NCBI RefSeq assembly: GCF_040939125.1
Contig: NZ_CP162495.1
Location: 3,286,001 to 3,350,000 of the forward strand
Direction of reading: 5' to 3'
Length of the DNA: 64,000 nt
DNA from: Clostridium sp. BJN0013
Lineage (GTDB): Bacteria; Bacillota; Clostridia; Clostridiales; Clostridiaceae
Part shown: positions 9,578 to 48,685 of the stretch, piece by piece
Layout of the letters: every line of letters starts with the position of its first letter
Numbering within the stretch: position 1 is the first letter of the stretch
The notes under the pieces: generated by a model
Told to the model about the DNA's origin: nothing
The model's database searches: none
What the model saw: the letters and a program-made list of their open reading frames with translations, nothing else
Program-made: the position numbers and the translations under genes

Positions 9578-10018
9578 CTAAACTACTTTTCTATTTTTTA
9601 TAGCTTCTTCTAAAGTATGCCATGCAAGCACTGCACATTTTACCCTACCAGGCAAGGTAGATATATTTTTAAGGGCAATGGCATCTTCTAGTTTTTCTAA
9701 TTCTTTCTCATCAGTAACTTCTTTCTTTATCATTCCTATAAAGAGATTTACATAATCTATGGCTTCATCAATAGTTTTACCTTTTACCAAATCTATCATC
9801 ATAGATGTAGAAGCCTGAGATATGGCACATCCACTACCTTCATAAGCCAAATCACTTATTACATCTCCATTAAATTTTAATAAAAGAGTTATATCATCTC
9901 CACAACTGGGATTATGTCCTCTCTCTTTTACATCTGCATCTTTTATATATCTTTTATTTGTAGTATCTTGATTATGTTCTGTTATTATTTCCGAGTATAT
10001 CATACTAAGATCGTCCAT
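9578..10018 (-). CDS. sufU: SufU, IscU-like iron-sulfur scaffold / sulfur acceptor
   Basis: A 146-residue SufU/IscU-type protein with the three conserved Cys regions: NPSCGDD, GSGCAIS and VKCAVLAWHTL. In Firmicutes SufU takes sulfur from SufS through a zinc-bound cysteine. The start overlaps the end of sufS by 14 bp; an alternative ATG lies five codons in, and neither has a strong ribosome site. Last gene of the suf operon. Confidence 0.9.
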   Translation of the reverse strand: MDDLSMIYSEIITEHNQDTTNKRYIKDADVKERGHNPSCGDDITLLLKFNGDVISDLAYEGSGCAISQASTSMMIDLVKGKTIDEAIDYVNLFIGMIKKEVTDEKELEKLEDAIALKNISTLPGRVKCAVLAWHTLEEAIKNRKVV

Positions 10019-11270
10019 ATCCTAACCACTTCCTTACCTGCCTAAGACCCTCTATAAATTTATCTATTTCTTCATAGGTATTATAGAAATAAAAACTAGC
10101 TCTTGAAGATGACTGTATACCTAAATATTCCATAAGGGGCTGTGCACAGTGATGCCCTGCTCTTATTGCCACTCCATAAGTATTTAATATTGTTGACACA
10201 TCATGAGGATGCACATCTTTTACATTGAAGGAAATAATTCCTCCCCTATGTTCTGTATCTTTAGCTCCGTATACTGTAACATATTCTATTTCACTAATTT
10301 TTTTAAGTACATATTCTGTAAGTTCCCTTTCATATACTTCAATCTTATCAAGTCCTATTGAATTTAAATAATCAATAGCTGCTCCAATAGACACAGCTCC
10401 TTCTACATTTTGAGTCCCTGCTTCAAATTTATATGGAAGTTCTGCAAAAGTAGATTCCTGTTCTGTGACATATTCTATCATATCTCCTCCTCTTAAAAAA
10501 GGCGGCATTTTTAACAGAAGTTCTTCTTTTCCATAAAGCACTCCAATTCCCATGGAAGACAGCATTTTGTGACCTGAAAATACAAAAAAATCCGCATCAA
10601 TATCACACACATCTACTTTCATATGGGGGACACTCTGGGCTCCATCCACTATAACTACAGCTCCTTTTTTATGAGCATATTTTGCGATTTCTTTAACTGG
10701 ATATTTTGTTCCAAGTACATTGGACATCTGCGCAATAGAAACTAGCTTTGTTCTATCTGTAATCTTACTTTTATATTCCTCTTCATTTAATCTTCCATTT
10801 TTATCAGTATACATATATTTAAGTACTGCACCTTTGGCTTTTGATATCATTTGCCAGGGGAGTATGTTACTATGATGTTCTGATATAGGAATTACTATTT
10901 CATCTCCTTTATTTATAAAATTTACACCATAGGTATAAGCTATTAAATTAAGAGACTCTGTAGCATTTCTTGTAAATATTATTTCAGAGCACTTTTTTGC
11001 TCCTATAAATTCTCTTACTTTTTCACGAGCTCCCTCATAAGCCTCTGTAGATGTAATTCCTAAATAATGAGCACCTCTGTGAGGATTTCCATTATAATTT
11101 TCATTATAATTTTGCACTGCCTTTATAACAGATATTGGTTTTTGAGTTGTGGCGCCATTATCTAGATATACTAAATCATTTCCATTTACTTTTATAGATA
11201 GTATAGGAAAGTCTTTCCTTATTTTTTTTACATTTATATTTGTTATTTTGGCATCTAAACCATTCATCAT
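10005..11270 (-). CDS. sufS: SufS, group II cysteine desulfurase
   Basis: A 421-residue PLP enzyme taking sulfur from cysteine for Fe-S assembly. It has the PLP-lysine motif FSGHKMLSSMGIG and the catalytic loop RAGHHCAQPL, as in SufS-type desulfurases. The ATG overlaps the sufD stop (ATGA), so the two are translationally coupled; the site GGAGG lies in the sufD end. It works with SufU downstream. Confidence 0.95.
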   Translation of the reverse strand: MMNGLDAKITNINVKKIRKDFPILSIKVNGNDLVYLDNGATTQKPISVIKAVQNYNENYNGNPHRGAHYLGITSTEAYEGAREKVREFIGAKKCSEIIFTRNATESLNLIAYTYGVNFINKGDEIVIPISEHHSNILPWQMISKAKGAVLKYMYTDKNGRLNEEEYKSKITDRTKLVSIAQMSNVLGTKYPVKEIAKYAHKKGAVVIVDGAQSVPHMKVDVCDIDADFFVFSGHKMLSSMGIGVLYGKEELLLKMPPFLRGGDMIEYVTEQESTFAELPYKFEAGTQNVEGAVSIGAAIDYLNSIGLDKIEVYERELTEYVLKKISEIEYVTVYGAKDTEHRGGIISFNVKDVHPHDVSTILNTYGVAIRAGHHCAQPLMEYLGIQSSSRASFYFYNTYEEIDKFIEGLRQVRKWLGYGRS

Positions 11271-12436
11271 ATAATCCTCCTATTAAGTTCTTCAGATAAA
11301 AGTTCTCTCAAATCCTCTGCAGGAATTCTATCAAAAATAGGATTGAATCTGGCTTCTATTACAAGTTTTTGTGCTTCACTATAATTAAAACCTCTGCTCA
11401 TTAAATAAAAAAGTTCATCTTCGTCTATTTTACCAATACTGGCTGCATGTGCTCCATCTACATTCTCTTCTCTGCAAAGAAGCATTGGAACAGAATCTGT
11501 TTTCACTTCAGGATCTAAAAGAAGTACTTCTTCCATCTGAGATCCTTTAGATTCATAACATCCTTTTTTAAAATCTATGTTGCCTTTAAATACCTTTTTA
11601 GCTCTATCTTTTAATACCCCTTCTACCCACATATTGCTGATACTCTTTTTACCAAAATGATTATTAGTATAGTAAATATCCTGTTTTCTATCTCCATCTA
11701 CCATATATGCTGAATAAATATTAACCTCACTATGTTCTCCTATTAAATCAGAATTATAATTTGTAACACTTATACTACTTCCAATTTCTATAGTTATCCA
11801 ATTTATCTTGGCACTTCTCTCTACAAGTGCCATATTCCAATCAAAATGAAACGATTTATCATTCATCCTTTGAATTTTTACAACATTTACCTCGGACCCA
11901 TCTTTTGCAATTATTTTAGTTATCCCATTATGAAAAGCATTTATCTCCTCATTATCTGTATGATAATCTACTATAAAAGTAATTTTGCTGTTAGCCTCAG
12001 CCACAATTATATTATGATCTATAACCATAGTATTATCTTTATCCAAATTAAAATTAAGCCTTATATTTGAGTTCACAATCTTATTCGGAGGAACTTTTAC
12101 AAATACACCTGAATTAAATCCTTCTTCTCCAAGTTTTACAAAATCTCCACACACAAAAGATGCTTCTTTAAAATTAGGGTAATTATAGAAATACTCACTT
12201 TTTCTTTCTTTGTTTATAGGCACTACCTCCGCCTCTTTAAAATCTTCAACTTTAAAATTTATATAATCCTTATCATAAGGATTTATTTTTGAAAGTCTAC
12301 AGTCTTTAATAGGAAAATTATTTAATCCCAAACATTTCCATGTGGGAACATAGGTTGAGTTTACTTTAAAGTCCCTTTTACTTTCAAATATAACTTTCAT
12401 ATCTTTATTTTCATTGAAATTTTCTTCATTTAACAT
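11267..12436 (-). CDS. sufD: SufD, Fe-S assembly complex subunit
   Basis: A 389-residue SufB/SufD-family beta-helix protein. The end carries the paired family motif DGAHAASIGKIDEDELFYLMSRG, shown here in parts: DGAHAASIGKID and LFYLMSRGF. It acts with SufB and SufC as scaffold complex SufBCD. It follows sufB by 17 bp and is preceded by AAGGAGG. The N-terminus is more diverged than the C-terminal third, as is usual. Confidence 0.92.
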   Translation of the reverse strand: MLNEENFNENKDMKVIFESKRDFKVNSTYVPTWKCLGLNNFPIKDCRLSKINPYDKDYINFKVEDFKEAEVVPINKERKSEYFYNYPNFKEASFVCGDFVKLGEEGFNSGVFVKVPPNKIVNSNIRLNFNLDKDNTMVIDHNIIVAEANSKITFIVDYHTDNEEINAFHNGITKIIAKDGSEVNVVKIQRMNDKSFHFDWNMALVERSAKINWITIEIGSSISVTNYNSDLIGEHSEVNIYSAYMVDGDRKQDIYYTNNHFGKKSISNMWVEGVLKDRAKKVFKGNIDFKKGCYESKGSQMEEVLLLDPEVKTDSVPMLLCREENVDGAHAASIGKIDEDELFYLMSRGFNYSEAQKLVIEARFNPIFDRIPAEDLRELLSEELNRRII

Positions 12437-12453
12437 TATGCTATCCTACCTCC

Positions 12454-13860
12454 TTATCCTATAGTTCCCTTCAGCTCTAATTTAATCAAGTTATTCATCT
12501 CCACAGCATATTCAAGTGGAAGCTCTTTTGCTATAGGTTCTACAAAACCTGTAACTATCATACCTTTTGCTTCTTCCTCTGTAAGTCCTCTGCTCATAAG
12601 ATAAAAAATGGCATCCTCGCTTATTCTGCCTATCTTAGCTTCATGTCCTATATCTACATTGTTATTACATACACTTATAACAGGTATGGTATCTGATCTG
12701 GATTCGTTATCCAACATAAGTGATTCACAGGACACACTTGATTTTGAGTGAACTGCATTCTTTGTGGAACTTAAAAGTCCTCTATAAATAGCAACTCCTC
12801 CATCTTTAGATATTGATTTTGAATTTACAGTAGATGTAGTATTTGGTGCTGCATGAATTACTTTTGAACCTGTATCTAAATACTGATTGGCACCTGCAAA
12901 AGTTACCCCTGTAAAATCACATTTTGCTCCTTCCCCTTTTAATATACTCATGGGGTACAGCATTGATACTTTAGAGCCAAAAGACCCTGTTACCCATTCT
13001 ATATGACCATTTTTATCTACAACTGCTCTCTTTGTATTTAAATTATACATATTTCTAGACCAATTCTCTATAGTACTGTATTTTAATGAAGCTCCTTCTC
13101 TTATATAAACTTCCACACAACCTGCATGCAAGTTATTTACATAATATTTAGGTGCAGAACATCCCTCTATATAATGAATTTTTGCTCCTTTTTCAACTAT
13201 TATAAGGGTATGTTCAAATTGTCCCGCTCCTGGAGCATTTAATCTAAAATAAGATTGAATTGGAATATCAACCTGAACTCCCTCTGGAACATATACAAAG
13301 GATCCTCCAGACCATACTGCTCCATGAAGTGCAGCAAATTTATGATCCGTTGGAGGTACAAGTTTCATAAAATGAGGTCTCACTAATTCTTCATAGTCCC
13401 TTATGGCCGTTTCCATATCCATATATAGTACACCCTGTTTTTTCAGATCTTCACTTACATTATGGTAAACAACTTCAGAATCATATTGAGCACCTACTCC
13501 TGCTAGTGATTTTTGCTCTGCTTTAGGTATACCCAACAAATCAAAAGTATTTTTTATATCTTTAGGAACATCTCTCCAATTATGTTTTATGTCAGTATCT
13601 GGTCTTACATAGGTCACTATATTATCCATATTTAGATCTGTTAAATCAGGTCCCCATGAAGGCATTGGCATATTATCATATATTTCTAAGGCCTTAAGCC
13701 TAAACTCTTTCATCCAGGCCGGATCATTTTTTTCATAAGATATTTCCTCTATTATTTCTTTTGTAAGTCCTCTATCAGTTTTATAAATAGATTCATCTTT
13801 ATTTTTTACATCATAAATACTTCTTATTATATCTTTTATATAAGTTTTATTTTTTTTCAA
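12454..13860 (-). CDS. sufB: SufB, Fe-S assembly scaffold subunit
   Basis: About 468 residues. The best site (GAGAGGTG) lies six bases before a TTG, so I place the start there; a GTG three codons upstream is possible. The C-terminal region has the conserved DIGHEAKIGRIS and LMSRGLTEEEA. SufB is the main scaffold on which clusters are built, with SufC as ATPase. It follows sufC by about 29 bp. Confidence 0.95.
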   Translation of the reverse strand: MKKNKTYIKDIIRSIYDVKNKDESIYKTDRGLTKEIIEEISYEKNDPAWMKEFRLKALEIYDNMPMPSWGPDLTDLNMDNIVTYVRPDTDIKHNWRDVPKDIKNTFDLLGIPKAEQKSLAGVGAQYDSEVVYHNVSEDLKKQGVLYMDMETAIRDYEELVRPHFMKLVPPTDHKFAALHGAVWSGGSFVYVPEGVQVDIPIQSYFRLNAPGAGQFEHTLIIVEKGAKIHYIEGCSAPKYYVNNLHAGCVEVYIREGASLKYSTIENWSRNMYNLNTKRAVVDKNGHIEWVTGSFGSKVSMLYPMSILKGEGAKCDFTGVTFAGANQYLDTGSKVIHAAPNTTSTVNSKSISKDGGVAIYRGLLSSTKNAVHSKSSVSCESLMLDNESRSDTIPVISVCNNNVDIGHEAKIGRISEDAIFYLMSRGLTEEEAKGMIVTGFVEPIAKELPLEYAVEMNNLIKLELKGTIG

Positions 13861-13889
13861 CAGGAACACCTCTCTTATTAAACAGTATA

Positions 13890-14636
13890 TTATACCAGAG
13901 CCTTAAATTTATCATATCCGCTTTTCTCTATTTCTTCAGCTAAAGATGCATCCCCAGTCTCAACTATTTTTCCATCTACAAGTATATGGACATAATCCGG
14001 TTTTAAATACTCTAAAATACTATTATGATGGGTAATTATAAGTATAGAATTCTCCTTTGTTCTAAGCTTGCTTACTCCTTCTGATACTATTTTAACTGCA
14101 TCTATATCAAGTCCTGAATCTGTCTCATCTAGCATAGCAAGTTTTGGTTCAAGCACCGCCATCTGAAGTATTTCATTTTTTTTCTTTTCTCCACCAGAAA
14201 ACCCCACATTTAAGTACCTTTTAGTATAGCTTTCATCTATTTTTAGAAGTTCTAATTTTTCTTTTAAAATTTTTCTAAATGCCAAAATACCTATTTTCTT
14301 TTTAGAAACTGAAATTTTTGCGCTTCTTAAGAAATTTTCCACAGTTATACCTGGTATCTCCTGTGGATATTGAAAAGACATAAAGATTCCACATCTGGCC
14401 CTTTCATTTACTTTTAAGTCACTGACAGACTTTCCTTCAAATATTATATCTCCTGCTGTCATATTATATTTAGGGTGCCCCATAATAGTATTTACAAGTG
14501 TAGATTTTCCTGCACCATTTGGTCCCATTATGGCATGAACTTCACCTTTACCAACTTCCAAATTCACTCCTTTTAATATTTCTTTATCGCCAACTTTTGC
14601 TATTAAATTGTTTATTTTTAATAATTTATTTGACAT
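13890..14636 (-). CDS. sufC: SufC, Fe-S assembly ATPase
   Basis: A 248-residue ABC-type ATPase without membrane segments: Walker A GPNGAGKST, signature GFSGGEKKK (the Suf variant), Walker B LAMLDETDSGLD. First gene of sufCBDSU, behind AAAGGAG. A 25-bp imperfect palindrome at 14714-14738 lies in its promoter region. Confidence 0.95.
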   Translation of the reverse strand: MSNKLLKINNLIAKVGDKEILKGVNLEVGKGEVHAIMGPNGAGKSTLVNTIMGHPKYNMTAGDIIFEGKSVSDLKVNERARCGIFMSFQYPQEIPGITVENFLRSAKISVSKKKIGILAFRKILKEKLELLKIDESYTKRYLNVGFSGGEKKKNEILQMAVLEPKLAMLDETDSGLDIDAVKIVSEGVSKLRTKENSILIITHHNSILEYLKPDYVHILVDGKIVETGDASLAEEIEKSGYDKFKALV

Positions 14637-15010: not shown

Positions 15011-15193
15011 AACCCTCTTCCAAACAAGAAGAGGGTTTTATATCATTCCTAAGATACAAAAGAATCAACCTTAAAGGTATTTTCTTTACCTCATCTTCCA
15101 GAACTATGTTCTGATGGACTTAGCACCTTACATAAAATTTAAATGTGGTTGCTGAAACTTCATCGGGCCATTCCCTAAGTTTCTCTTGATAAG
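15011..15193 (-). promoter_or_regulatory. SAM-I (S-box) riboswitch with terminator, upstream of yezD
   Basis: The minus strand shows the S-box core in order: CTTATCAAGAG, ACTTAGGGAATGGCCC, GATGAAGTTTCAGCAACC, GGTGCTAAGTCC and GATGAGG. It is followed by a strong intrinsic terminator (AAACCCTCTTC-N8-GAAGAGGGTTT with a T run) at 15011-15038. Transcription is expected to stop when SAM is bound. Confidence 0.93.
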
Positions 15194-15324
15194 GATATTC
15201 ATTAAATTTTTGAATTATTACTTTTATTAAGTTTCATTATATTATATTAAACTTTACAATGTCAATAAAATTGAAATAATTTTTTAATAAATCATATTTG
15301 TGCTACAGAAATTTTTATATACTA

Positions 15325-16653
15325 TTATTTATAAGTCTCCAGTATATTACTATATATATCTTCTGTCAAAGTTAGCCCGCCATTATATCCCACATAAGTT
15401 CTATTGAGCACTAACCTGTGTTTGACCGGTAGTGATATATTTATTCCAAATCCATTTAATTCTGACACTATATCTCTATCCCATGAACTTCCCAAAATCA
15501 GAGGAGTATGATTGCCATGTCCATATTTTCTCAAGCTTTGATGTATTTTTCCTCCATCTATTTCAAATATTACTTTAGCAGAAGTGCTATTTGAGAGATG
15601 TTCAAATTCATACTCTATGCTTTTTCTATATTGTTCAGGAGTATCATCTGTAATATATTGTTCTCCTGGAACAATCCCCAGTTCATTGGTTAAAAACTTA
15701 CTAATCCCAAGGGCATAAAAAGAATCTGTTATATTAAAAAATCTATCTGCCACACTATATCTGAATTCTATAAAAAAGTCTATTGATCTATCAATATAAT
15801 AATAAAATCTCTCTTCTTCTTCATTTATAAAAGTTTCCACCTTTTCTTTATTAAGCTTAGCAAAATCCCCCACAGTTCTTAAAAATTTACTGGTTTCTTT
15901 TGCACCTATGGGCAAAATTGGATAATGCAAATAAGGAGTACCATACTTTTTCTTCAATAATTCAGCAGTACTTAAACCTACCCAAGGTGATAAAACTAAA
16001 TTAAATTGTGCTTGTGGAATTGTTTTCCATTCATCAGCACCACCAGATTCTGTACCAAAAAGTATATTCACTTTTAATCCTATTCCTTCAAGTAACTTTT
16101 TTATCTCACCTAAATTCCCAGACCAAAATGTATCCTGATAGGGAATCACAGACCATACATTTACCAATCCCACTTCTTTTTTTATTGATTTTTCACTTAC
16201 AAACTGATTTATAATAGCTTCAATAACTAATTCATGACCTTTAAAATTGCTTCCTTTAAAACCTGCTGTCTCTGCATAAACTATGGGAATGCCTTTATCT
16301 TTATATTCACTTACTACTTGCCCTACATCATCCCCTATTATATCAGAAGTACATCCTGTTAAAACTACAAATAAATCTCCTTTTAAAACCTTAAGGGTTC
16401 CATCTATCACCTGTTTTAATCTCTGCTCTCCCCCAAATACTACTTCTCTTTCTGTAGTATTGGTACATGGTACAGAACTTCCACCAGAATAACCTACTCC
16501 TTGATATCCTGAATCAACACTAAGCCCATCAAAAAGTTTAATTCCGCAGCCTGGTCCTGAATGAAGTATAGGAATAGCTCCTTTTATAGCTAATACTGAT
16601 TGTTGTGCACCTAATGCACAATAATGTCTAGGTTGCTCTATTATTTCATCCAT
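15325..16653 (-). CDS. Nitrogenase-like component 1, K (beta-type) subunit
   Basis: A 442-residue protein whose ATG at 16653 overlaps the stop of the D-like gene (TGATG), behind GGAGGTG. It belongs to the NifK/NifN oxidoreductase family: YCALGAQ (Cys12), HSGPGCG (Cys36) and LTGCTSDIIGDDV (Cys101) line up with the three P-cluster cysteines. The linked D gene and the absence of nifH, nifE/N or nifB nearby argue against true nitrogenase. The methionine/SAM context suggests a group IV enzyme such as methylthio-alkane reductase (MarDK-like), but assignment to that clade needs a tree. Alternatives are a cofactor-assembly pair or an unknown reductase. Confidence 0.75.
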   Translation of the reverse strand: MDEIIEQPRHYCALGAQQSVLAIKGAIPILHSGPGCGIKLFDGLSVDSGYQGVGYSGGSSVPCTNTTEREVVFGGEQRLKQVIDGTLKVLKGDLFVVLTGCTSDIIGDDVGQVVSEYKDKGIPIVYAETAGFKGSNFKGHELVIEAIINQFVSEKSIKKEVGLVNVWSVIPYQDTFWSGNLGEIKKLLEGIGLKVNILFGTESGGADEWKTIPQAQFNLVLSPWVGLSTAELLKKKYGTPYLHYPILPIGAKETSKFLRTVGDFAKLNKEKVETFINEEEERFYYYIDRSIDFFIEFRYSVADRFFNITDSFYALGISKFLTNELGIVPGEQYITDDTPEQYRKSIEYEFEHLSNSTSAKVIFEIDGGKIHQSLRKYGHGNHTPLILGSSWDRDIVSELNGFGINISLPVKHRLVLNRTYVGYNGGLTLTEDIYSNILETYK

Positions 16654-18119
16654 CAAATATCACCTCCTAGAAAAGTATAAGGATCCTGTTTAAGCCACCA
16701 ATCAGTATATGGCAGCTTGGAGTGTGCTGCAATATTAGTTACAAACTCTTTAGTTAAAAGTACATCTATGATTTTATCACCATAATTAAGCAATCCTTGA
16801 TATCCTAATCCAAATTGTTCATCTCCCATTAAAAACGTAGGTATTCCAAGCTTTGGACCCCATGCAGACATACCTCCATGCCTTGCTATAAACAGATCTG
16901 GTTTCAGCTTGTTTAGTACATTTACTAACTCAAAAGGTTGTTTATTGCAGACGTTAAAATTCTTAACATCTCCATAATTCTTCACTACATGAGGCAGACT
17001 TTCACTTCTAGGATCTTTATTATCACAGCAAGGATCATGATGAAATATTGCTGCACCTACCACTTCCATATGAAGTTCCTTTAAAAGTGCTATTAAACTA
17101 TGTCCATGAGCTGCACCTGCAGTAATATATACTCTTTTTCCCTTTAATTTACTTCTCAGTTCCTTAAGCTTAGGGGCAATTCTTTCTCTTTCAGATTTTA
17201 TCAATTCTTCAACTTCCTTTTCTTTTCCCGTTACTCTGCCAAGTTCCCTAAACCAGAGATCTGTACCTTTAAGTCCATAAGCAGGTGGTGCTTTTACTTC
17301 TGGTACTCCGTACTCCTGCTCCAATCCTGCTGCTAAATATGTTCCCAGTGTAGGACATATTTGTACTGTAGCTGCAGCTTCAGATATCTTTTCCAACTGC
17401 CCTATAGTAGAAAATGGCACAATATAATTAGGCTTTAACCCAATTCGTCCAAATAATTCTGTAAATATATCAGTTCCCCAAAAATTGATTACATTTACTA
17501 AATCTTTTCTTTTATTAACAGGAGGTTTAACAATTTTTTTTAAAATAGCATGATATGCTGCATCAAAACCTGTTGTCCAAATTCTTGATCTAAAACCTTC
17601 ACAAGCTACAAAAACTATAGGTATTCCCAATTCCTTTTCTGCTTCATTAGTTACTACTTCTACATCATCTCCTATAATTCCCGAGGCACAGGAAGTAGTT
17701 ACAAAAATTGCTTTAGGCTTAAACCTTTCATAAGCCTCTTTTATAGTTTTTCTTAGTTTTTCTTCTCCTCCGTATATAGTATCCTTTTCCTTTAAATTTG
17801 TGTTCAATAGTCTTGCATTCCTTAATGGAAGATTTCTCTTAATCTGTCCTACTCTGTTGGTAAAATTAAAATCAGGTAAATCCGCACAACACCCTATGGG
17901 AGCATGATTTATTACCACAGAATCCTGTATCATAATAAGCTGACACAGTGAATAACCTGAATTACATCCTAAACATTGACTAAAAGAGCGCCTTCTTTCA
18001 CATAATCTTTTCCCCTTAGATTTATTACAAAGCTCTCTAGCAGTTCCTGCAAAGCCAGTAATAGAACCTAATCTAGATTCTCTAATTTCAACTTCCGGGG
18101 ACTTTATATTAATACCCAA
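16653..18119 (-). CDS. Nitrogenase-like component 1, D (alpha-type) subunit
   Basis: A 488-residue protein starting with TTG at 18119, seven bases after a perfect AGGAGG. It is NifD/NifE-like: a Cys cluster at 49, 52 and 59 (QCLGCNSGYSLC), INHAPIGCC (77/78) and TTSCASGIIGDDVE (Cys144), corresponding to the P-cluster region. A second Cys-rich stretch, FHHDPCCDN, lies in the C-terminal half, followed by FIARHGGMSAWG. The doublet Cys77-78 and the extra N-terminal cysteines differ from NifD. It is first of a two-gene unit, with a palindromic element (18228-18258) upstream that is shared with metN. The reductase partner (NifH-like) must be elsewhere. Confidence 0.78.
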   Translation of the reverse strand: MGINIKSPEVEIRESRLGSITGFAGTARELCNKSKGKRLCERRRSFSQCLGCNSGYSLCQLIMIQDSVVINHAPIGCCADLPDFNFTNRVGQIKRNLPLRNARLLNTNLKEKDTIYGGEEKLRKTIKEAYERFKPKAIFVTTSCASGIIGDDVEVVTNEAEKELGIPIVFVACEGFRSRIWTTGFDAAYHAILKKIVKPPVNKRKDLVNVINFWGTDIFTELFGRIGLKPNYIVPFSTIGQLEKISEAAATVQICPTLGTYLAAGLEQEYGVPEVKAPPAYGLKGTDLWFRELGRVTGKEKEVEELIKSERERIAPKLKELRSKLKGKRVYITAGAAHGHSLIALLKELHMEVVGAAIFHHDPCCDNKDPRSESLPHVVKNYGDVKNFNVCNKQPFELVNVLNKLKPDLFIARHGGMSAWGPKLGIPTFLMGDEQFGLGYQGLLNYGDKIIDVLLTKEFVTNIAAHSKLPYTDWWLKQDPYTFLGGDI

Positions 18120-18227
18120 AAATATACCTCCTTTATAATTATCATTTAACTTTTTATCAACTATACAATATGAAACTTTTTATATAAATCCAGATATAAT
18201 GAGGTGATTTTACTTTGCAAAACATAA

Positions 18228-18258
18228 AGTTTAGTCTCCAGTATACTGGTCAACTAAA
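18228..18258 (-). promoter_or_regulatory. Palindromic element shared with the metN leader (copy 1)
   Basis: The minus strand reads TTTAGTTGACCAG - TATA - CTGGAGACTAAA, an imperfect inverted repeat about 110 bp before the nitrogenase-like D gene. The same words recur at 20779-20810 before metN with a five-base centre. Operator or RNA hairpin; the factor is unknown. Confidence 0.6.
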
Positions 18259-18374: not shown

Positions 18375-19199
18375 CTAAAAAGCCGGTACTACTGCAACTC
18401 CATATTTGCTCTTTATAAAGTTTTTTACATCCTCTGAATTCAGCTTTGCCACTATGGTCTTAATTTCTTTTTTATTTTCATCACCCTTTCTTACAACAAT
18501 TACATTTGCATAAGGTGAATTGCTGTCTTCTCTAAATAGTGCTTTATTTGGATCCATTTTAGCTTCTAATACAAGATTTGTATTTATTATGGAGCCATCT
18601 ACATCCGGCAATACCCTTGGAAGCTGAGCTGCATCAACTTCTACAAATTGAAGATTTTTAGGATTATCTGCAATATCTGAAGGCGTAGCATTATAATTAG
18701 ATATTCCAGATTTTAATTTAATAAGTTTTTGGGCTTCAAGAAGAGCTAAAGCTCTGTATTCATTTGAAGGATTATTGGGTATAGCAATCTTGGCGCCATC
18801 TTTAAGTTCATCTTTAGATTTAATTTTATCAGAATAAAAACCTATGGGTTCCACATGAACTTTTCCAGCCACTGCAAAATTATATCCTTTTTCTTTAGTT
18901 ACAGACTCTAAATAAGGTACATGTTGAAAATAATTGGCATCTATTTGTTTTTCCTGTAAAGCTGGATTTAACTCATCTTCGCTATCTAAAACAATAACTT
19001 GTAAATCTATCCCCTCTTTTGCCAGTGCAGGTTTTATATGATTCAATATTTCTGCATGTGGCACTGCCGCTGCTCCTATTTTCACCACAACCTTGTCATT
19101 TTTACTGTCTGCACTTTTTGAGTCATTCCCATTGCTGCAACCTGAAAATAATCCTACAACCAACGCCAAAACTAAAAATATTATACTTTTTCTCTTCAT
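18375..19199 (-). CDS. metQ: MetQ, methionine-binding lipoprotein (NlpA family)
   Basis: A 274-residue protein with a lipoprotein signal: basic start, hydrophobic stretch and lipobox LFSGC (Cys21). The body is typical NlpA/MetQ, with KIGAAAVPHAEIL, the ligand region and AIPNNPSNEYRAL. It delivers D/L-methionine or related sulfur compounds to MetNI. It follows metI by 25 bp. Some NlpA relatives bind other ligands, so methionine is inferred from family and riboswitch. Confidence 0.9.
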   Translation of the reverse strand: MKRKSIIFLVLALVVGLFSGCSNGNDSKSADSKNDKVVVKIGAAAVPHAEILNHIKPALAKEGIDLQVIVLDSEDELNPALQEKQIDANYFQHVPYLESVTKEKGYNFAVAGKVHVEPIGFYSDKIKSKDELKDGAKIAIPNNPSNEYRALALLEAQKLIKLKSGISNYNATPSDIADNPKNLQFVEVDAAQLPRVLPDVDGSIINTNLVLEAKMDPNKALFREDSNSPYANVIVVRKGDENKKEIKTIVAKLNSEDVKNFIKSKYGVAVVPAF

Positions 19200-19224: not shown

Positions 19225-19893
19225 TCAATCAAATTTATATCTCTTTTTATTTACATGTTTAGAAATGCGATCTCCTGAAAACTGTATAAACTGTACTAAA
19301 AAAATTAATAATATTACTGTAGCTATCATTATATCCTCACGAAATCTCTGATAACCAAAACGTATTGCCAGACTTCCTAATCCCCCTGCACCTATGACCC
19401 CAGCTATAGTGGTAAATTCAATAATAGATATAATTGAAATTGTAATTCCCTTTATAAGGGAAGGAAGTGCCTCCGGTATTAAGACCTTTGATATAATCTG
19501 AAATGGTTTTGCTCCCATAGATAATGCTGCTTCAATTTTTCCCCATTCTACTTGTTCTATGGATGTCTCAATAATTCTAGCCAAAAGAGGTGATATTCCT
19601 ATGGATATAGGTACAATAGCCGCCTTCATACCAAGTGTAGTCCCTACAATTGACCTAGATAAGGGCAGTAAAACTACAATTAATATTATAGAAGGAAGAG
19701 ATCTTATTGCATTTACTATAGTAGCTAATATCTTATTTAACCTTTCATTCTCCAAAATATGTCCTTTTTTAGTAACAACAAGAATAATTCCAAGTGGCAT
19801 CCCTATAAGTAAAGCTATACTGCCAGCTATAATCACCATTTCTATAGTTTCTGATAATCCCTTTAGAACAAATATTTTAAAATCATCAGTCAT
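19225..19893 (-). CDS. metI: MetI, methionine ABC transporter permease
   Basis: A 222-residue membrane protein with about five membrane segments and the permease loop (EAALSMGAKPFQII). The ATG at 19893 overlaps the metN stop (ATGA) and has GGGGAGG before it; the longer upstream frame is not needed. Partner of MetN and MetQ. Confidence 0.92.
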   Translation of the reverse strand: MTDDFKIFVLKGLSETIEMVIIAGSIALLIGMPLGIILVVTKKGHILENERLNKILATIVNAIRSLPSIILIVVLLPLSRSIVGTTLGMKAAIVPISIGISPLLARIIETSIEQVEWGKIEAALSMGAKPFQIISKVLIPEALPSLIKGITISIISIIEFTTIAGVIGAGGLGSLAIRFGYQRFREDIMIATVILLIFLVQFIQFSGDRISKHVNKKRYKFD

Positions 19894-20669
19894 ATTACCT
19901 CCCCTCCAACACATTCCGAATTCACACTGAGATTTGCCATTATTTTAACAAATTTTTTTGCAGTGTTACTTTTAGGATTTAAAAATACTGAATTTGTGCT
20001 TCCTGCTTCTACGATACTACCATCTTCAATTACTGCCATATTATTGCATATATATTTAATAACATCTAATTCATGAGTTATAAGTAATATAGTTAAATTC
20101 AGTTTCTTATTTATATCTCTTAAAAGTTCCAATATAGAATAAGTGGTTTGTGGATCTAGGGCAGAAGTAGCTTCATCACTTAACAAAACATCTGGTTCAT
20201 TGGCTAGAGCCCTTGCTATACCTACTCTTTGCTTTTGACCTCCACTTAGTTGTGCAGGATAAAAGTCCACTTTATCACTTAGTTCCACTAAATTCAATAT
20301 TTCATACACTCTATTTTTTATTTTTTCTTCAGAATAACCAGCTATTTTTAAAGGAAAAGCTACATTTTTATATACATTCATTGAATCAAATAAATTAAAA
20401 TCTTGAAATATCATTCCAATTTTTTTTCTGGCTTCTCTAAGCTCAGCTTTATTCATAGCTGTAATATCATTATTTCCAATAAATATACTTCCAGAAGTAG
20501 GTTCTTCAAGTCTGTTCAAATATCGTATCATAGTAGACTTTCCAGCTCCGCTAAATCCTATGATGCCAAAAATATCTCCTTTTTCAACTTTAAGATTTAT
20601 ATCCTTCAAAACTTCAACTTTACCCCTAGGTGTATTAAATGTTTTATTTAAATTTCTTATATCTATCAT
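19890..20669 (-). CDS. metN: MetN, methionine ABC transporter ATPase, short form
   Basis: About 259 residues from the ATG at 20669 (AAGGGGGT upstream); an ATG ten codons earlier is possible. It has Walker A GFSGAGKST, signature LSGGQKQR, Walker B LLSDEATSALDP and the His switch. Usual MetN proteins are about 320-345 residues and carry a C-terminal NIL (ACT-like) domain that binds methionine and inhibits transport. This one stops shortly after the ATPase domain, so that feedback site is missing. The gene heads metNIQ under a SAM-I riboswitch. Confidence 0.9.
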   Translation of the reverse strand: MIDIRNLNKTFNTPRGKVEVLKDINLKVEKGDIFGIIGFSGAGKSTMIRYLNRLEEPTSGSIFIGNNDITAMNKAELREARKKIGMIFQDFNLFDSMNVYKNVAFPLKIAGYSEEKIKNRVYEILNLVELSDKVDFYPAQLSGGQKQRVGIARALANEPDVLLSDEATSALDPQTTYSILELLRDINKKLNLTILLITHELDVIKYICNNMAVIEDGSIVEAGSTNSVFLNPKSNTAKKFVKIMANLSVNSECVGGEVI

Positions 20670-20778
20670 ATAATTGGTCTTTACCCCCTTACCCAGCATT
20701 TACCTATATACTTCTTATTTTAATTTAAATAAATATATCAAAACAAAAAAGACTAAATCTTATACTTATAAAGTTAAG

Positions 20779-20810
20779 ATTTAGTCTCCAGTTTTTCTGG
20801 TCAACTTTTA
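20779..20810 (-). promoter_or_regulatory. Palindromic element shared with the nitrogenase-like operon (copy 2)
   Basis: The minus strand reads AGTTGACCAG - AAAAA - CTGGAGACTAAA. It lies between the riboswitch terminator and metN, where a plain riboswitch leader needs nothing more. It points to a second control point or a second promoter. Confidence 0.6.
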
Positions 20811-20830: not shown

Positions 20831-20974
20831 CTCAGGGGGGTAAATCCCTGAGTTTACATCCTCAATGATTACCTCATCTTTCAGCTACAATGCTGCAGGA
20901 TTTAGCACCAATGCATTACATAATGCTGGTTGCCGGGCTTCATAGGGCCTTTCCCTCCGCCTCTCTTAATAAGT
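20831..20974 (-). promoter_or_regulatory. SAM-I (S-box) riboswitch with terminator, upstream of metNIQ
   Basis: The minus strand core reads CTTATTAAGAGAGGCGGAGG, AAAGGCCC, TGAAGCCCGGCAACC, GGTGCTAAATCCTGCAG and GATGAGG. The terminator (CTCAGGG-N8-CCCTGAG then T5) is at 20831-20852. It ties methionine uptake to SAM level. Confidence 0.95.
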
Positions 20975-21127
20975 TATGATATTTAATTATTTAATATTGT
21001 AGTAATTAGTATATCAGTGCTCAGGTATATTGTCAATATTTTTATAATATAAAATTTAACAACTTTTAATTTACTGAAAATAGAATAATTTTATTTATCT
21101 TTGGGCAGAAAAAATTAAATTCAATAC

Positions 21128-48347: not shown

Positions 48348-48605
48348 AAAAAATCCCCATCCTAAAAACTAGGACGGAGACATTACCCGCGGTACCACCT
48401 AAATTGTGTTCTTTAAAACACCTCTTTTTCAGACACTAACATGTCCTATCCGTTATAACATACGGCTAACGTTAACCACTACTCTCTATATACATAGATT
48501 TCAATTTACTCCTCTTAGGCCCATTCACTACATGCTGTAATATTGAGATTCCACCATCCTCAACTCTCTAAAACTCAACAACATAGCTACTATTCCTCGT
48601 CAAAG
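48348..48605 (-). promoter_or_regulatory. T-box leader upstream of trpP, probably tRNA-Trp specific
   Basis: The minus strand has the T-box core AATTTAGGTGGTACCGCGG followed by a terminator (CCGTCCTAG-TTTTT-AGGATGG then T run). At the 5' side is the stem I base AGAGAGTTGAGGATGGTGGA. A TGG in the context GAA-TGG-GCC (48521-48523) is the best specifier candidate and fits the downstream gene. Confidence 0.9.
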
Positions 48606-48685
48606 GATTTACTAATTAAATTATTTACATAATATCACTTAAATATCATGCTGTCAATAAATATAACTGATTAAATTAAAAATAT

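Follow-up and report, generated by a model that had tools for sequence, protein, structure and literature searches.

A two-gene, nitrogenase-like pair (DK) lies in a 64,000-nucleotide (nt) stretch of Clostridium sp. BJN0013 (NZ_CP162495.1, here C1, positions 3286001-3350000 of a closed genome of 4.10 Mb), referred to in full as the window. The pair is rather likely to form the catalytic component of a reductase that resembles methylthio-alkane reductase (MAR) and would cleave the carbon-sulfur (C-S) bond of an organosulfur compound, passing the sulfur into methionine synthesis; on sequence evidence, its role would probably be sulfur scavenging from organic compounds rather than N2 fixation. 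In the absence of oxygen, MAR-type enzymes turn organic sulfur into methanethiol and small hydrocarbons. A short hairpin is common to the organism's own mar, metNIQ, DK and sulfonate-type ATP-binding cassette (ABC) transporter operons. A broader proposal is tentative, and we hold it at somewhat less than even confidence: the hairpin may represent a class of cis-regulatory RNA not yet described, which would act as an antiterminator switch together with the S-adenosylmethionine (SAM)-I riboswitch and govern an organosulfur regulon in which several enzymes are nitrogenase-like; likewise, the group IV-A “nitrogenases” of Endomicrobium proavitum and Heliophilum (NflDK1) may be methionine-linked C-S reductases with a substrate unlike that of MAR.

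The two reading frames overlap by 4 bases (positions are those of the window):

16653..18119, minus strand: D subunit, 488 aa, predicted MAR-like catalytic alpha subunit (PF00148, residue alignment)
15325..16656, minus strand: K subunit, 443 aa, with P-cluster Cys13/37/102 (PF00148)

That the pair is real, as had been read from the bare letters, is borne out by PF00148 matches over nearly the full profile, with 202 bits for K and 280 bits for D at a cut-off of 28.6. Its nearest solved relative is by far MAR. Among solved structures, D matches MAR with an E-value of 2.1e-153 and K with 3e-149, the next non-MAR entries standing at 2e-36 and 1.6e-21, respectively. An AlphaFold model of D from 26 D sequences (pLDDT 88.4, pTM 0.88) finds 9fmg_A as its best Foldseek match (TM 0.93, root-mean-square deviation 1.4), with the best nitrogenase at TM 0.67. 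Sequence identity to R. rubrum MarD/MarK is 47/52%.

The residues around the metal clusters point the same way (MAR numbering and ligand naming follow the sections of PMC12552129 used here). The P-cluster-type cysteines originally noticed in both subunits align with those of MAR, D Cys52/77/144 with MarD Cys66/91/158 and K Cys13/37/102 with MarK Cys32/56/121. The [Fe8S9C]-cluster ligands are kept as D Cys255 and His414 (MarD Cys270 and His429), and D Arg413-His414 corresponds to Arg428-His429 of loop I, where Arg428 is proposed as a possible hallmark of MAR in those sections (PMC12552129). Also kept are D Trp181, Phe185, His360, Cys59 and Gln60, equivalent to MarD Trp195, Phe199, His375, Cys73 and Gln74. 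In the His194-Trp195-His375 set around the S2B site, the tryptophan and the second histidine are retained and His194 is replaced by Ile180; His194 is named there among the residues surrounding the proposed substrate site (PMC12552129). Across 87 aligned DK pairs, position 194 is His in 5/5 canonical MAR and in 0/70 window-type pairs, the latter having Ile (36), Met (26), Val (6) or Leu (2). Arg428 is kept in 70/70 window-type pairs and His429 in 68/70, both exceptions belonging to a separate type. With His194 exchanged for Ile next to the proposed substrate site, the window enzyme would seem to act on a different substrate from canonical MAR. A further DK type (L048:6566, L051:3700) sits on a long branch; in it, Asp takes the place of the cofactor His, and the cluster-side Trp, Phe and His are replaced by Ile, Tyr and Asp.

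The family tree was built from 64 rows of joined D and K sequences, 23 of the 87 pairs, mostly near-copies, being left out. Canonical MAR (five rows, with R. rubrum MarDK) forms a clade with 100/100 support, and the window pair stands outside this clade; the phylogenetic check proposed earlier does not bear out membership in MAR proper. The pair groups with Clostridium luticellarii and two other Clostridium-type loci (100/99), within a ten-row clade that includes D2K2 of its own genome (100/99). A single clade of window-type pairs was tried and rejected for its 42-row core by the approximately unbiased (AU) test (p 0.002).

A second MAR isoenzyme, acting on MAR substrates and differing only in regulation, is an unlikely identity for DK. 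Such an isoenzyme would agree with the retained cofactor ligands and cluster-side residues and with a hairpin regulon common to DK and mar, and joining the window's ten rows with canonical MAR as one clade is not rejected (AU p 0.378). However, the pair falls outside the canonical clade, His194 is replaced throughout the window type, and identity to R. rubrum MAR is as low as given above while a MAR with 70/75% identity exists in the same genome. The original prediction had offered either MAR or a novel reductase for organosulfur compounds, with control by methionine/SAM: the nearest structure, the hallmark residues, the gene context of relatives and the regulation shared with mar uphold a MAR-like enzyme of this kind, whereas MAR proper is disfavored by the placement of the pair and by Ile where 5/5 canonical MarD have His.

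This canonical MAR belongs to one of several nitrogenase-like loci in the genome, which holds nine PF00148 pairs (the window pair and eight others) plus two lone or partial matches. The mar cluster (L016, C1:1080000-1096000), about 2.2 Mb from the window DK, comprises in order a NifB-type gene, ABC transporter genes, D1K1, a NifH-type gene and D2K2, with the B gene (TIGR01290) and the H gene (TIGR01287) both above cut-off:

C1:1080533-1081804: NifB-type protein B of the mar cluster
C1:1087550-1088416: iron protein H of the mar cluster

D1/K1 show 70/75% identity to R. rubrum MarD/MarK, so by sequence D1K1 is the organism's canonical MAR, with its own H and B in the same cluster. D2/K2 are 74/71% identical to the window D/K. 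K2 ends early and is followed by a group I intron match (L016:11528-11854, within the region L016:11400-13500 = C1:1091399-1093499) and by a transposon-type open reading frame (ORF; L016:12175-13344, named by eye), beyond which a K-like C-terminal peptide can be read; the interruption looks like an IStron-type insertion, and a RAGATH-18 RNA match (L016:13396-13469) lies directly downstream of it. Identity is 48/50% for a further pair (L017), downstream of which an ABC transporter is encoded whose binding protein matches the SsuA family below cut-off, and 33/37% for another (L018), which a cysteine synthase gene adjoins. Complete nifHDK-EN genes are found at L023 and an alternative-nitrogenase-like D-G-K set without its own H at L019 (C1:538000-551000), the names in both cases being given by resemblance. 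In a genome of the same genus (G126), D is 97% identical to the window D.

The window DK lies in a methionine- and sulfur-related block of the order SAM-I riboswitch, metNIQ, DK, SAM-I riboswitch, yezD-suf. This arrangement, described from the start, is corroborated by agreeing RF00162 and domain matches:

20871..20975, minus strand: SAM-I riboswitch aptamer (RF00162) upstream of metN, 85.4 bits, above the gathering score
19890..20699, minus strand: metN, methionine-type ABC ATPase (ORF, PF00005)
19225..19914, minus strand: metI, permease (ORF, PF00528)
18375..19199, minus strand: metQ, NlpA-type lipoprotein (ORF, PF03180)
15088..15195, minus strand: second SAM-I riboswitch (RF00162) upstream of yezD-suf, 91.5 bits, above the gathering score
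14803..14961, minus strand: yezD, 52 aa (DUF2292)
9578..14636, minus strand: suf genes, named by domains: sufC (ABC ATPase), two SufBD-core genes, sufS-type (aminotransferase-V) and sufU-type (NifU-N)

Terminator-like stems follow the metN-side riboswitch (20855-20828) and the yezD-side riboswitch (15039-15009), and 255 nt separate metQ from D. As had been claimed, DK has no local nifH, nifB or nifEN: the NifH family (PF00142) has no match in the 64-kb window, marB and marH are likewise absent from it, and the nearest other PF00148 genes are ~345 kb away. Elsewhere in the window, a T-box leader match is found at 48367-48612 on the minus strand.

The string TTGACCAG-N3..8-CTGGAGACT occurs at three sites in the 4.1 Mb of the genome, before marB, metN and D, and not once in the reversed control. 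A sulfonate-type ABC operon and the L017 pair are preceded by two further sites, which deviate from the string at one and two positions; three-mismatch hits were dropped, as they numbered 3 in the genome and 3 in the reversed control. The two copies in the window are:

20775..20809, minus strand: hairpin between the SAM-I riboswitch and metN (model R1, E 8.0e-7)
18225..18258, minus strand: hairpin before D (model R1, E 3.7e-6)

At the metN-side copy, AGACUAA opens a terminator stem of 13 pairs that ends near 20750 with a T-run. An overlapping terminator, with a stem of at least nine pairs at the 3' side of the hairpin, was found at 22 of 30 sites as opposed to 17% of shuffles, and the other eight sites, including the one before D, lack such a stem (30 of 31 sites were counted, L098 having been excluded beforehand as chance). 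One sequence without GTT, L132 (G193), was judged chance and excluded from the hairpin set by eye. In the covariance model R1, 99% of cells pair across 50 aligned copies, and all seven pairs change on both sides. Double-change cells number 24, compared with 3.8 +/- 1.6 in shuffles (0/500 as high) and far fewer in slid controls, a count that is biased towards structure since the copies were collected and aligned by a model that rewards pairing. The first alignment of 29 exact-pattern sites showed no covariation (140/500 shuffles as high) because its core was invariant by selection of the sites. The loop has 4 or 5 nt, and several loop adenines are nearly invariant.

A shared DNA operator was the first reading of the repeated motif and was dropped after the overlapping terminators and the covariation were found. 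That the element is such a palindromic operator rather than RNA now appears decidedly unlikely: the core is indeed palindromic and some copies, including the one before D, have no clear terminator, but the loop varies in length, all seven pairs show double changes, the 3' side commonly begins a terminator stem, and 48 of 52 copies in related loci lie on the DK strand. Over the hairpin, no match to an Rfam family attained the gathering score at the sites scanned, and at E-values up to 10 only sub-threshold overlaps with the hairpin or the terminator were seen at two sites (best E 0.11, a microRNA model). By eye, the hairpin did not fit the consensus sequences of K-turn, BglG/LicT-type or ANTAR-type targets. 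No description of the hairpin element, or of a metNIQ-DK operon under SAM-I control, was found in the open-licence PMC literature.

The exact pattern, taken from this genome alone, is present in 20 of 206 family genomes, with no reversed-control hit in any listed genome, and a MAR-like D (E<=1e-60) in 41 of the 206. Nineteen of the 20 pattern-bearing genomes have a MAR-like D (p 1.4e-14 by genome); counted by genus, D is present in 6 of 7 genera with the pattern and in 10 of 46 overall (p 1.4e-4). Among 391 class genomes, D is found in 13 of 17 with the wider model R3 compared with 24 of 391 overall, a less independent test given that R3 was partly trained on DK loci, and R3 has no match at E<=0.01 in 11 of the 24 genomes with D. 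At that threshold, R3 finds 52 copies in 28 of 81 related loci and nine sites in the own genome, all of them outside the nif cluster and the L019 set. One genome that has no MAR-like D at E<=1e-60 also carries a strong hairpin with terminator (L160, G510:C1:2721472-2721505, minus strand).

A first downstream ORF was assigned for 92 of 103 hairpin copies. It is a mar or other nitrogenase-like (nfl), met, ssu-type, CysK or Cys/Met-PLP gene in 68 and something else in 24, although at least six sites were counted twice through two routes and many loci were chosen because of D. Pfam matches of ten downstream ORFs include SAM synthetase, a Cys/Met-PLP enzyme, a B12-binding protein and a URO-D-family protein as well as amino-acid permeases and, unexpectedly, heavy-metal proteins. 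A SAM-I riboswitch stands directly upstream of the hairpin at metN, at marB and in 4 of 20 further scanned loci, namely the own ABC operon, L125, L127 and L133. Several single sites may be recorded here. A heavy-metal P-type ATPase lies downstream of the hairpin at L151:5769-8304 (minus strand, near C1:1462270), with a second, R3-detected copy on the opposite strand at C1:1462441; an HMA-domain protein follows the hairpin elsewhere (L124 and L128, listed with L151), an unexpected metal link within a sulfur regulon. A diverged hairpin with a strong terminator (L018:9418-9451, minus strand) precedes NifX-type, CysK, K5 and D5 genes, and at L114 and L115 the hairpin lies before a SAM synthetase gene (by Pfam and by eye, respectively) with no clear terminator after it.

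The gene context of relatives links the window type to sulfur amino acid synthesis. Of 266 relatives found in one scan, 79 loci were compared, on contigs of differing length and with many close rumen relatives, so that the following counts are not independent events. A Cys/Met-PLP enzyme is encoded in 54/79 loci (the representative matching TIGR01326, O-acetylhomoserine aminocarboxypropyltransferase, above cut-off), an iron protein in 53, a NifX-type protein in 50, a NifB-type protein in 49, a cysteine-synthase (CysK)-type protein in 37 (representative TIGR01136, above cut-off), and MetI and MetQ in 26 each. SAM-I model R2 gave 19 strong copies in 10 of the loci. C. luticellarii (L033) has the order metNIQ-DK-SAM-I-suf as in the window, with the same suf order after DK as far as compared (sufC, sufB, SufBD, sufS). 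In L034, a mar D-K-H set, whose H is read in two overlapping frames, is directly followed by the hairpin, metNIQ and DK; in both L033 and L034, 15 nt lie between metQ and the start of D. A Chloroflexota plasmid with independent annotation carries nifB-nifX-nifH-D-K with an O-acetylhomoserine aminocarboxypropyltransferase nearby. SUF as supplier of the clusters and MetNIQ as importer of the substrate, both suggested originally, are putative roles; shared methionine control would account equally well for metNIQ standing beside MetY-type genes.

Full-length NifH (PF00142) proteins are encoded only twice in the genome, at C1:1087601 and C1:1824412. All 53 iron proteins of the relatives are closer to the mar-cluster H than to the organism's own NifH, 37 of them at an identity of at least 70%, and the mar-cluster H is proposed as partner in trans because of this match. 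The search for a cognate NifH-like reductase, suggested at the outset, has thus yielded a candidate ~2.2 Mb away, the pairing itself being predicted; the mar-cluster H and B are most likely the iron protein and maturase that serve the window DK in trans.

A sulfonate reductase similar to IsrBHDK, the isethionate reductase of R. capsulatus, is a very unlikely alternative. In the sections of PMC11423573 used here, IsrD is described as forming a clade that neighbors MarD and NfaD; SsuA-type ABC genes adjoin the L017 pair and some relatives, and the substrate-binding protein of the hairpin-bearing own ABC operon is 36% identical to that of L017. The window pair, however, lies beside metNIQ and not an Ssu-type ABC, and IsrB is described as BciD-like (PMC11423573), whereas the B proteins of the relatives are NifB-like (TIGR01290).

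A further reading, that DK is an N2-fixing group IV-A nitrogenase, arises from its probable overlap with published “Nfa” sequences. In the sections of PMC9147875 used here, 15N2 incorporation is reported for E. proavitum (with reference to Zheng et al. 2016), and Heliophilum NflDK1 is grouped with E. proavitum NfaDK, predicted to fix N2 and adjoined by the sole nifH-like gene. Among the window-type rows of the tree, whose 42-row core is rejected as one clade (see above), are Heliophilum L040, 64% identical to the window D, and the Endomicrobium metagenome-assembled genome (MAG) L074, 56% identical and used as a stand-in for E. proavitum, compared with 47% for R. rubrum MarD. L040 is probably NflDK1, because an iron protein gene follows its window-type K as stated for the Heliophilum nifH-like gene, and the window type probably overlaps group IV-A “Nfa”. 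N2 fixation by DK is nevertheless highly improbable. NifD Val70, Gln191, His195 and cofactor His442, named for N2 reduction in PMC12552129, have no equivalents in the aligned window D, which has Cys/Gln, Trp, Phe and the MAR-type loop I His at these positions, and MAR, with the same residue set, does not reduce N2 according to the same sections (PMC12552129). The SAM-I and methionine context and the complete nifHDK-EN genes elsewhere in the genome also speak against it. A NifEN-like scaffold role was considered and set low.

In the favored MAR-like reductase, regulation and catalysis might be connected as follows. At low SAM, the riboswitch would let transcription enter metNIQ-DK, and a second signal would act via the hairpin, which would compete with its terminator. 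Electrons would come from the mar-cluster iron protein and the cofactor from the mar-cluster NifB-type protein, both in trans. C-S cleavage would release methanethiol or sulfide, which an O-acetylhomoserine sulfhydrylase could use. Several findings weigh against this reading. The copy before D has no clear terminator, its best stem having 5 pairs. Neither control is family-wide, with SAM-I in only 10 of 79 loci (R2) and no hairpin at E<=0.01 in 53 of 81, among them the Endomicrobium locus. Furthermore, the genome also has a canonical MAR, and a second enzyme therefore needs a different substrate or condition.

If the reading is true, anaerobes of gut, rumen and soil possess a sister group in which an active-site residue has changed; this would broaden MAR-type chemistry and matter for the question of whether group IV-A “nitrogenases” are N2 fixers in the first place. 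The hairpin, if it is a new RNA switch, would offer a sequence marker for the regulon and a direct way to its signal.

Nitrogenase-like enzymes for sulfur are already known in MAR and Isr, as described in the sections of PMC12552129 and PMC11423573 used here. R. rubrum MarDK (PDB 9FMG, 9D9U; PMC12552129) resembles DK in fold, the six P-cluster cysteines, the cofactor Cys/His, the loop I Arg-His, the Trp/Phe near the cluster and the sulfur context. Unlike MarDK, DK is only 47/52% identical to it, has Ile for His194, lacks a local marB and marH, is under SAM-I and hairpin control and falls outside the clade. Of the named genomes for which a function has been claimed in print, those with group IV-A Nfa (E. 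proavitum, Heliophilum NflDK1) come closest in identity; Nfa is reported or predicted as a nitrogenase in the consulted part of PMC9147875, whereas the context and residues of the window DK point to sulfur. IsrBHDK, compared by description only (PMC11423573, in part), is likewise nitrogenase-like, serves sulfur assimilation and is close to MarD/NfaD, but its maturase is BciD-like, unlike the NifB-like B proteins of this genome. A methionine-salvage role has already been proposed in the consulted part of PMC10418091 for MarHDK-like group IV-A genes near type I mlp clusters, tied to MetY and CysK; the metNIQ-DK operon and the hairpin are not described in that part, and the word riboswitch does not occur in version 4 of the paper. 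What would be new here is the hairpin element and the metNIQ-DK operon under SAM-I control. The SAM-I riboswitch (RF00162) is itself a known system, with two full matches in the window and one before the own marB; unlike plain SAM-I control, the metN and marB leaders add a separate hairpin-terminator element after the riboswitch.

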